Assembly (NCBI GenBank): GCA_015067585.1
Contig: SVMC01000005.1
Coordinates: 1 to 64,000 of the forward strand
Source of the DNA: Oscillospiraceae bacterium
GTDB lineage: Bacteria; Bacillota; Clostridia; Oscillospirales; Oscillospiraceae
DNA: 64,000 nucleotides
Direction of reading: 5' to 3'
Below the pieces are notes generated by a model. That model was not told the origin of the DNA. It worked only from the letters and a program-made list of their open reading frames with translations, and made no database searches. The position numbers and the translations under genes were made by a program. How positions within the stretch are numbered: position 1 is the stretch's first letter; every line of letters begins with the position of its first letter. This document shows, piece after piece, positions 61,292-64,000 of this stretch.

Positions 61292-61327
61292 GCCCGGTTC
61301 GCTCTACAGCGAACCGGGCACGGTTTT
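61292..61327 (+). terminator. Terminator of thyA-folA
   Basis: GCCCGGTTCGCT / AGCGAACCGGGC 12-bp stem then ACGGTTTTTT. Confidence 0.92.
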
Positions 61328-61406
61328 TTATCAAGAACATGGAATCTTTTCTTCCATTTTACAAAAACAGATGCTATCATAAAGAAAAATGCAAAGGGTG
61401 ATGGTC

Positions 61407-61823
61407 ATGAGGATCTATATTCATCTGAAAAAGCTGGGGAAGAGGCTGCGGCAGGTGGAAGCCTGCGCCTATGAGCTGCAGCGCTGCCCCGATACCCTGC
61501 GGGAGCTGATCTGCGAACTGGTGCAAAAAAGTGTGGAGGACTATCACAGCCGGATGGACAAGCAATCCGCTGCTGTGCTGACGGGTGAGGCCCTTGCGGG
61601 CATGGCGCAGGTGGGCAAGATCGGCTTTGGCATCAGCTATGGCACAAAGCGGGCAAACCTGGATGACGCGATCGAAACCGCCCTCACCGGCTTTGCCGAT
61701 GGCCTGTACCGTTTTTTCCTCAATGACTGCGAAGTGACGGCGCTAAATGCACCATTGAAGCTTCAGGAGAACGACACCGTTACCATCCTCCGTCTGGTCA
61801 TGCTGACCGGCGGGATGCTCTAA
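61407..61823 (+). CDS. Beta-grasp (MoaD/ubiquitin-like) candidate protein with C-terminal Gly-Gly
   Basis: 138 aa from ATG 61407, the one best placed after AAAGGGTG; earlier ATGs at 61389 and 61401 are in frame. The N-terminus (MRIYIHLKKLGKRLRQVEACAYEL) looks like two beta strands, and PDTLRELICELVQKSVEDY like the following helix. The C-terminus (FFLNDCEVTALNAPLKLQENDTVTILRLVMLTGGML) has the strand-loop-strand pattern that ends MoaD/ThiS proteins, with GG at 135-136. Between is about 50 residues not found in MoaD. The similarity is pattern-level only. It is directly upstream of and in operon with a giant helical-repeat gene (15 bp gap). Confidence 0.7.
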   Translation: MRIYIHLKKLGKRLRQVEACAYELQRCPDTLRELICELVQKSVEDYHSRMDKQSAAVLTGEALAGMAQVGKIGFGISYGTKRANLDDAIETALTGFADGLYRFFLNDCEVTALNAPLKLQENDTVTILRLVMLTGGML

Positions 61824-61838
61824 GAAAGGAGGATCACC

Positions 61839-64000
61839 ATGCCTCAGATGAATGCGCAGCTTCGCCACGAGCTGGATCTGGCCAGCAGTTATCGGCAGAA
61901 AATGAAGGAGCGGGACGGCATCATCAACCGCCGCCTCATGCAGGCTTCTGAGTTCGGAAAGACCCGGGGCGCACAACTCTATGCCGCCTTTACCGGCGGC
62001 ATGATCGATGCCTTTTCCTCCGGAAAGTACGAAAAACCCTCGGAATTCTGCAAAAAGGAAAAGCCGTGGCTCTTTGAGCAGGTGGTCTATCCCCGGTTCC
62101 GCACCGCCTTTCTCACCATGGCAGATCAGATGCTGGAATACCCCTATGCCGTTTCCTACGGCCGAAGGAGTTACCGCGCCAAAAGCTATCTGTCCTATGT
62201 GGGCAGGCTGCAGCACATGGCCCTCGCCTTCTGGCATCAGGCCAACATTGACGCGGACATCCGCGATATCCTTACTGGGAATCTGCCGGAGGAGGTGCTG
62301 TGCTATCTTCGCCATCACCAGTGGCGGCCCGCAGGCTTTGCCGCGGAGGTTCTGGCCTACGAGCTGGATCAGAACGATCCCAGGTTAGAGGCCATTGTGA
62401 CCGATATCATCAACGGAGAGGGCAGCTTCGCCACCGTATCCCATGAACTGATCCGGGGCATCGTCATGAGCCACAATCCCCGGATGCATCAGCTTCTGTG
62501 CAGGCTTCTGCTGGCGGCAAGGCTGCAGGAGGGTCTTCGCCAATCCATCTGCGAGAATGCCGATCAGGGCACGAAGGAAGCCTTCTTTGCCATCCTTAGC
62601 ACCATTGCGGAAAACGGCCTGATCCGCTATTCCTCCGTGAAGCGGGCGGTGGGCACTTGGCTGGGATTGATCGCGGATGAAATGGGTGATCTGAATCGGG
62701 TCAGTGAAAAAAGCGCGGAGCTGATCTGCCGCTGCCTTTCAGACCATGCCTTCCGGGATGAATGCATCCGCTCTGAGGATGCCATGAAGATCTACATTGC
62801 CCTTTGGAGCCATGCCTTTGACAACGTGGAGGAAGCGGTGGAGATCCTGAAGGAGATCATCGTCTCCGGCACCCACCATCAGCTCCTGACCGCAAGCTAT
62901 CTTGTACACAATCTGGACAGCGACCTTCTGAAGCACAAGACTGCAAAAGCAGTGCTGCACCACCATCGGGACAAAGAGGACATTCTGGCGGTCTATCTGC
63001 CCGAATTCATCCCGTACCATGCCGGTATTGTCCATTCGATCGTTACAAAGCAGCCCTATGAGTCGGCAAAATATTTATTTGAAACCAATGAGGAAGCCAC
63101 AGAATTCTGCGATTGGCTGATCGCGGCCCACCGCTCCATGAAAAAGCGGGAGCACATATTTGAACCCTGCATCTTCCCGTGGCATAAGGCAGTGCTGAAA
63201 AAGTCGGATTTTGTGGAGAAGGCCATTGTAATCGCCGTCGCCATGCAGGATCAATCCCGTATCGATGCCCTTTGCCCCATGCTATCCGATTGCGAGGCAT
63301 GGGGCAGAGAGACCTTCTTCAAGGCGCTCACCATGGGGAAGAAGACACCTGCTGTCCGCGCTGCCGTGATCAAGGGCTTGTCGGACAAGGCTGAGAATAC
63401 CCGTCTGGCGGCCTGTCAGTGCTGCGAGGGAATGGCGCTGACAGGAGAAGAATATCTGCAGCTTGAGGATCTGCTGCGGCTTCGCTATGATGATCTTCGA
63501 AAGAATGTGATCGCGCTGCTGCTGAAGCAGCCGGAGGCTGCGGTGGAGGCTGCCATCGGGCGGCTGCTTGGCGCATCCAAAACGGAAAAGCGAACTGCAG
63601 CCTTGGATATGCTGATCCAGCTTCAGAAGGAAAAGTCGGCGCTGGTGCAGCGGTGTATGCCCCTTGTCCACGCCATCCCCAAGCCCACCACACAGGAGAA
63701 GGTGCTGATGGAGGCACTGCTTCCCAAGGAAAAAGCCGCCGAAGCGCAGCCTCTCTTCACCGAGGCGGATCGCTATCAGCCTGTGGTGGAGATCGATGAG
63801 GAACTGGCAAACTGCCTGCGTGAATTTACCACCTTCTTCCCGGATTCCAAGTTAGAACAGCAGGTGCTTGCAGGCATCCCCATGGCACCCCGCAAGACTC
63901 TTTTCCGGGGCAAAGCCTGCGTACAGGTGAAGGAAGCCGGAAAAAGGCTGCAGGATCTGTCCGATTTCTTCGTGCAGCATGAGACGGAGCAATTTGATAC
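61839..64000 (+). CDS. Very large helical-repeat protein, DUF5724/DUF4132-like (partial)
   Basis: Only the first 720 codons are visible; the frame is open to the window edge. AAAGGAGG lies 7 nt before ATG 61839. The sequence (MPQMNAQLRHELDLASSYRQ...) is nearly all alpha-helical with HEAT-like repeats, for example AVRAAVIKGLSDKAENTRLAACQCCEGMAL. No membrane segment or signal peptide is seen. Layout fits the large DUF5724/DUF4132 proteins that, in YehL-type clusters, occur with MoxR AAA ATPases, VWA and SWIM proteins. Those partners would lie beyond 64000. The ORF track omits it because it has no stop in the window. Confidence 0.8.
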   Translation, partial: MPQMNAQLRHELDLASSYRQKMKERDGIINRRLMQASEFGKTRGAQLYAAFTGGMIDAFSSGKYEKPSEFCKKEKPWLFEQVVYPRFRTAFLTMADQMLEYPYAVSYGRRSYRAKSYLSYVGRLQHMALAFWHQANIDADIRDILTGNLPEEVLCYLRHHQWRPAGFAAEVLAYELDQNDPRLEAIVTDIINGEGSFATVSHELIRGIVMSHNPRMHQLLCRLLLAARLQEGLRQSICENADQGTKEAFFAILSTIAENGLIRYSSVKRAVGTWLGLIADEMGDLNRVSEKSAELICRCLSDHAFRDECIRSEDAMKIYIALWSHAFDNVEEAVEILKEIIVSGTHHQLLTASYLVHNLDSDLLKHKTAKAVLHHHRDKEDILAVYLPEFIPYHAGIVHSIVTKQPYESAKYLFETNEEATEFCDWLIAAHRSMKKREHIFEPCIFPWHKAVLKKSDFVEKAIVIAVAMQDQSRIDALCPMLSDCEAWGRETFFKALTMGKKTPAVRAAVIKGLSDKAENTRLAACQCCEGMALTGEEYLQLEDLLRLRYDDLRKNVIALLLKQPEAAVEAAIGRLLGASKTEKRTAALDMLIQLQKEKSALVQRCMPLVHAIPKPTTQEKVLMEALLPKEKAAEAQPLFTEADRYQPVVEIDEELANCLREFTTFFPDSKLEQQVLAGIPMAPRKTLFRGKACVQVKEAGKRLQDLSDFFVQHETEQFD

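Follow-up and report, generated by a model that had tools for sequence, protein, structure and literature searches.

A small protein ending in ...RLVMLTGGML, encoded directly before a giant gene in the 64,000-nt stretch of DNA analysed here (the window), raises the question of whether this locus specifies a bacterial ubiquitin-like (Ubl) modifier. An initial annotation had proposed a ubiquitin-like fold for the 138-aa product, regarded its diglycine as a possible conjugation signal and linked the giant gene to clusters of the MoxR-VWA-SWIM (YehL) type. Our analyses favour, with a probability of roughly 0.55, a reading in which the small protein is a beta-grasp subunit encoded with the giant DUF5724-DUF4132-DUF7737 protein, to which it would most likely bind non-covalently.

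Both annotated open reading frames were recovered: the 138-aa frame with its GG-ML end is intact, and the giant frame begins at 61839, 15 bp past the Ubl stop codon (Table 1). The window end (64000) interrupts the giant frame, and the contig, 72,091 bases long, supplies 8 kb of further sequence. A hairpin with a 12-pair stem (61292-61319; shuffled sequence also yields one such match) separates the unit from thyA- and folA-like genes on its 5' side, and TlpA- and CcdA-like genes in convergent orientation lie 3' of the giant gene. From the hairpin before and the convergent genes after, we take the unit to comprise two genes here. A possible operator is the inverted repeat that lies 5' of the Ubl gene. 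Inspection of the contig past 64000 revealed no MoxR, VWA, SWIM, E1 or JAB genes next to the unit. Among sampled genomes of the host's genus and family the Ubl was found in 0 of 150 and DUF5724 in 0 of 300; because neither gene was found in these relatives, the unit was probably acquired horizontally, from outside the host family.

Table 1. Features of the two-gene locus at the 3' end of the window.
Feature	Position	Strand	Basis or remark
Ubl gene, 138 aa, tail TGGML	61407..61823	+	intact ORF; family alignment, AF2, Foldseek, hhalign
Codons of the GG-ML tail, GGC GGG ATG CTC	61809..61820	+	counterpart of GRMW in relatives
Giant partner DUF5724-DUF4132-DUF7737, 1762 aa	61839..64000, on to contig 67127	+	
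Ribosome-binding site of the giant gene, AGAAAGGAGG, strong	61824..61833	+	read directly
Terminator-like hairpin and T-run, between thyA-folA-like genes and the Ubl unit	61292..61329	+	
Perfect inverted repeat ATGGAA-N7-TTCCAT, 5' of the Ubl gene	61339..61357	.	read directly

Structure prediction agreed with the annotated fold, and the 138-aa protein likely has a ubiquitin-like beta-grasp architecture. The AlphaFold2 (AF2) model, built with 55 sequences (pLDDT 77, pTM 0.67), places strands at residues 2-9 and 19-23, a helix at 31-52 and strands at 101-105, 108-110 and 124-129, giving a predicted beta-beta-alpha-(insert)-beta-beta-beta topology with a poorly conserved helical insert and a disordered tail (pLDDT 41). 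Foldseek against the PDB ranked MoaD first (probability 0.96), then ubiquitin, SAMP1 and MOCS2, with Urm1 lower; probabilities were mostly 0.6-0.98, E-values ran from 0.01 up (about 0.01-0.1 at probabilities of 0.9-0.98) and TM-scores by query length were 0.34-0.41. With hhalign, the last strands of the Ubl fell in register with ThiS/MoaD at a score of 20.8 (P=0.003), against 8.8-12.0 for reversed and column-shuffled controls, and scattered weak Pfam matches to ThiS and Urm1 are consistent with a beta-grasp. An independent group found a MoaD/SAMP1/Urm1-like structure for the Deinococcus homologue (PMC9650054). Profile searches with the Ubl against Pfam and PDB sequences gave no significant match, and this, together with the modest Foldseek E-values, would suit a mistaken fold call, the protein being instead a chaperone or antitoxin-like alpha+beta protein, unrelated to the beta-grasp, that accompanies the giant. 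We consider that very improbable, as nearly all of the top 50 structural matches are beta-grasp proteins, the ThiS register scores above the controls, the independent study agrees and a sister branch of the family, described below, has GG termini and an E1.

The downstream gene encodes a giant DUF5724-type protein, as annotated. Pfam matches above cut-off were obtained for DUF5724 (PF18991; 4e-289, 962.9 bits), DUF4132 (PF13569; 2e-49, 168.8 bits) and DUF7737 (PF24879; 5e-35, 120.1 bits). DUF4132 proteins are widely annotated, and we know of no biochemical function assigned to them. In the C-terminal core common to short and long partners, 41 positions have the same residue in at least 22 of 23 sequences; no Cys is among them, which makes a role of the partner as an E2-like thioester enzyme unlikely. 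Residues of the conserved core include H1501, K1528, R1532, E1533, R1636, D1637 and H1697. For the DUF4132-DUF7737 region a good model was predicted (pLDDT 86); it had no convincing structural match, and a profile search of PDB sequences with this region returned nothing significant. Kinetochore and Mediator structures matched by the model were rejected because probability and TM-scores were low.

The Ubl gene and the giant gene are a real module, found in the same order in several phyla. In a phylum-wide sample a homologue of the small protein lay directly 5' of DUF5724 in 8/8 other genomes above cut-off, and one Bacteroides plasmid and four Deinococcus replicons carry the same gene order. 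Scanning 85,462 species genomes for the small protein alone returned 191 relatives, of which 80 were kept; DUF5724 is directly downstream in 77, one locus stops at the end of its contig, and the remaining two are orphan copies with no giant gene beside them. Among the plasmids, the records with the small protein and those with a full-length giant are the same five. As the homologues co-occur, in the same order, across several phyla, the pairing is more than chance. No relative was detected in viral contigs (single-protein and alignment scans) or in phage records (tblastn with a giant homologue), and neither protein matched the PADLOC anti-phage defence models. The genomes that hold the two orphan Ubl copies (L058 10001-10420 and L086 10001-10420) both carry two DUF5724 genes elsewhere.

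The link to MoxR-VWA-SWIM systems stood only in part. The gene order yehI-yehK-yehL-yehM-yehP-yehQ exists in E. coli and YehI does contain DUF4132, but homologues of YehL, YehM, YehP and YehQ were found in 0/96 loci of the window's branch (tblastn, E<=1e-4; flanks of about 5-10 kb, 9-10 kb in most loci, a reach that misses more distant partners). YehI shares only the DUF4132 part with the window giant and is distantly similar to the short partner of the sister branch; no Ubl is annotated in the yeh cluster, and its MoxR/VWA/SWIM genes are absent from all loci examined here.

Profile searches in Bacteroidota revealed divergent Ubl relatives that end exactly in PLVGG. Each branch's profile retrieves members of the other (E 4e-11 to 2e-6 in one direction, 4e-10 to 2e-7 in the other), and this sister branch is present in Bacteroidota, Alphaproteobacteria and Actinomycetota, including Novosphingobium and Nonomuraea. 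Its partner is short (~690-870 aa), and the two that were tested have DUF4132 and DUF7737 with no DUF5724 match. In 6 of the 14 sister loci with usable flanks, mostly from Bacteroidota, a third gene on the same strand and directly next to the pair encodes a ThiF-family E1 (Pfam ThiF, 1e-59 to 9e-66 for five of them that were scanned). Among solved structures its nearest relatives are Uba4, ThiF and MoeB, and the Uba4 catalytic Cys region is conserved in it. The best reading of these sequences is that they represent a new family of Ubls in bacteria that have DUF4132 proteins as partners and keep an E1 in one branch. The notion of an E1-served Ubl in this family finds support in the sister branch, with its -GG ends and adjacent E1. 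Integrase-like genes near sister-branch units (L163 13350-14594, L164 14696-15904 and L165 9986-11305; tyrosine recombinase type, judged by eye) suggest mobility.

Alignment of homologues revealed a tail of another kind in the window's branch. Its first Gly is invariant, the next residue is Arg in 86/94 relatives (a count biased by a genome-scan pattern that contained LAGR) and Trp is usually last; in samples chosen without this pattern, most members still follow the G with R, S, A or T and end in Trp. The window's GG-ML aligns with GRMW, and one base, CGG to GGG, turns Arg to Gly. The sister branch has the diglycine, as do the four Deinococcus sequences within the long family, which end in -AGG despite their long partner; across the window's branch it is not conserved. 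In a DUF4132-DUF7737 tree, for which the short branch was assumed as outgroup, the short GG branch falls on one side of the root and the long branch as a whole has support of 0.96; Deinococcus (-AGG) is the first split of the long branch, and all G-x-x-W members group together, with the window inside, adjoining an AGRMW member. On this assumed rooting the diglycine is likely ancestral in the family. Because the window protein nests inside the G-x-x-W group, its own GG is probably a secondary Arg-to-Gly change, which argues against the annotated role as a conjugation signal.

The window protein could nevertheless be a working modifier or sulfur carrier if an unlinked protease trimmed ML, a housekeeping E1 activated the product and DUF4132 acted as acceptor or ligase. 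Its GG sits at the exact site of the sister branch's terminal GG, and the adjacent E1 of that branch and the -AGG ends of Deinococcus are in line with this idea. We judge it improbable, given the Arg-x-Trp tails among which the window nests and the neighbourhood of the unit: the E1- and protease-like genes that would have accompanied a modifier were not seen at the window, no E1 was found near any of the 96 window-branch loci (1.74 Mb), and no JAB or E2-like gene was seen, JAB being sought by a crude motif and a Pfam neighbour survey (25 families listed). The only clear ThiF-family gene found in the host genome, a draft that is 82% complete, is TcdA-like by motif and size, and TcdA is not known to activate Ubls. 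A MoaE-like domain is present in this genome and no ThiS/MoaD-family match was obtained, a result that bears on a MoaD for the molybdenum cofactor and is given no weight at this completeness.

Alternatively, the whole G-x-x-W branch could consist of pro-proteins, the last three residues being cut and the exposed Gly activated by an unlinked E1. Ubiquitin-like precursors bear short C-terminal extensions, and the tail stops exactly three residues past the invariant Gly in nearly all members. Extensions that are discarded do not usually show the conservation seen in the tail Trp and Arg, however; only one Gly would remain after trimming, and the 96 loci have no protease or E1 neighbour. We consider processing of this kind distinctly unlikely, and a subunit that binds its partner non-covalently remains the preferred reading.

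Genomic neighbours also bear on a possible role as a MoaD/ThiS-like sulfur carrier for the molybdenum cofactor or a related pathway, with the DUF4132 (MolR-like) protein as acceptor. The fold, the weak ThiS/Urm1 profile matches and the Uba4/MoeB-kind E1 of the sister branch would agree with such a role, as would a molybdenum nitrate reductase adjoining the unit in 15 Paenibacillus loci and modA near the Deinococcus unit. Yet most of the window's branch is without GG, neighbours differ in other lineages and moeA/moeB were unchanged on DdrO depletion (PMC8533742), so that we give this role a small chance. No neighbour is conserved across distant lineages, and the recurring ones track relatedness within Paenibacillus; the proximity of the nitrate reductase may reflect shared ancestry rather than function. 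The gene in question, assimilatory-nitrate-reductase-like, lies ~275-340 bp 5' of the Ubl in most of the 15 loci (e.g. L045 7490-9661). Genes for RlaP RNA-repair nucleotidyltransferases were seen near the pair in two distant Firmicutes (L094 15448-16218, L042 14787-15677), and a published network places the Deinococcus homologue in one cluster with the Ro protein Rsr (PMC9650054).

The DRA0165-DRA0166 pair of D. radiodurans, in which the small protein goes by the name SEP068184, has the same order as the window pair, 35% identity in the small protein and the same DUF5724-DUF4132-DUF7737 domains; DRA0165 ends in -AGG whereas the window protein ends in TGGML, and its RDRM/DdrO operator was not seen in the window. 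Depletion of DdrO derepresses the D. radiodurans pair, which carries an RDRM operator, and mitomycin C raises DRA0166 through a response that depends on IrrE (PMC8533742). DR_A0165 rises after gamma rays and peroxide and binds thioredoxin, 157 co-purified proteins have been listed for it, and its deletion raises peroxide survival (PMC9650054). Its induction by DNA damage makes a part of the unit in the stress response likely, at least in Deinococcus. PMC9650054 states that an RDRM is absent and limits the protein to Deinococcus. Of four Deinococcus loci, three have the RDRM TTATG-N7-CATAA ~80-93 bp 5' of the pair and one has a variant, in support of PMC8533742 and against PMC9650054; the small protein has homologues in several other phyla, and its published restriction to the genus is corrected here. 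The four loci are L027 (upstream of 7117), L026, L028 and L029. Sites for LexA, PerR, CtsR, Fur, Zur and CymR 5' of the Ubl genes gave no pattern outside Deinococcus.

Under the preferred subunit reading, the family would have originated from an E1-activated Ubl that passed sulfur, or itself, to a DUF4132 partner, and in the long branch Gly-Gly would have been replaced by G-x-x-W and the E1 lost. The conserved G-x-x-W tail may dock into the conserved core of the giant partner, in the manner of the MoaD tail in MoaE; the C-terminal core would be the active part and the long helical DUF5724 region a scaffold. Activation of the tail by E1 probably precedes docking in the short branch and probably does not occur in the window's branch. 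Both steps, like any reaction that follows, are inferred. Several points speak against the subunit reading: thioredoxin binding and the 157 co-purified proteins (PMC9650054) could fit a free-standing role, Deinococcus keeps -GG with a long partner, and the long branch might rely on an E1 encoded elsewhere. A possible, if unlikely, broader picture is a widespread unnamed Ubl pathway that has no E2 or JAB genes nearby: the Ubl would be activated by a Uba4/MoeB-like E1, DUF4132-DUF7737 would receive the Ubl or its sulfur, and the window's branch would be a derived form with a tail that is still catalytic, being either trimmed or engaged in new G-x-x-W chemistry.

The window Ubl resembles MoaD, ThiS, Urm1 and SAMP in its predicted fold and in a C-terminal strand followed by a Gly-containing tail, and the sister branch additionally shares with them the -GG end and a Uba4/MoeB/ThiF-like E1. 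Unlike these proteins, the family has a helical insert of ~45 residues that separates helix 1 from strand 3, an obligate DUF4132 partner and no significant family match, and the window's branch is without a conserved GG or an E1 neighbour. Bacterial Ubl operons with E1, E2-like and JAB genes (PMC1779556; FtsH-ternary, PMC7159879) likewise place a Ubl beside a large helical protein, and the sister branch has the E1 in common with them; here the partner is a DUF4132 protein, and JAB and E2-like genes were not seen. MolR is not mentioned in the text of PMC1779556.

The association of DUF4132 with a Ubl partner and, in one branch, a dedicated E1 provides a first testable mechanism for DUF4132. The family resembles a natural case in which a Ubl loses its diglycine and E1 and keeps its partner, and such a loss would shed light on how beta-grasp proteins switch between covalent and non-covalent action.
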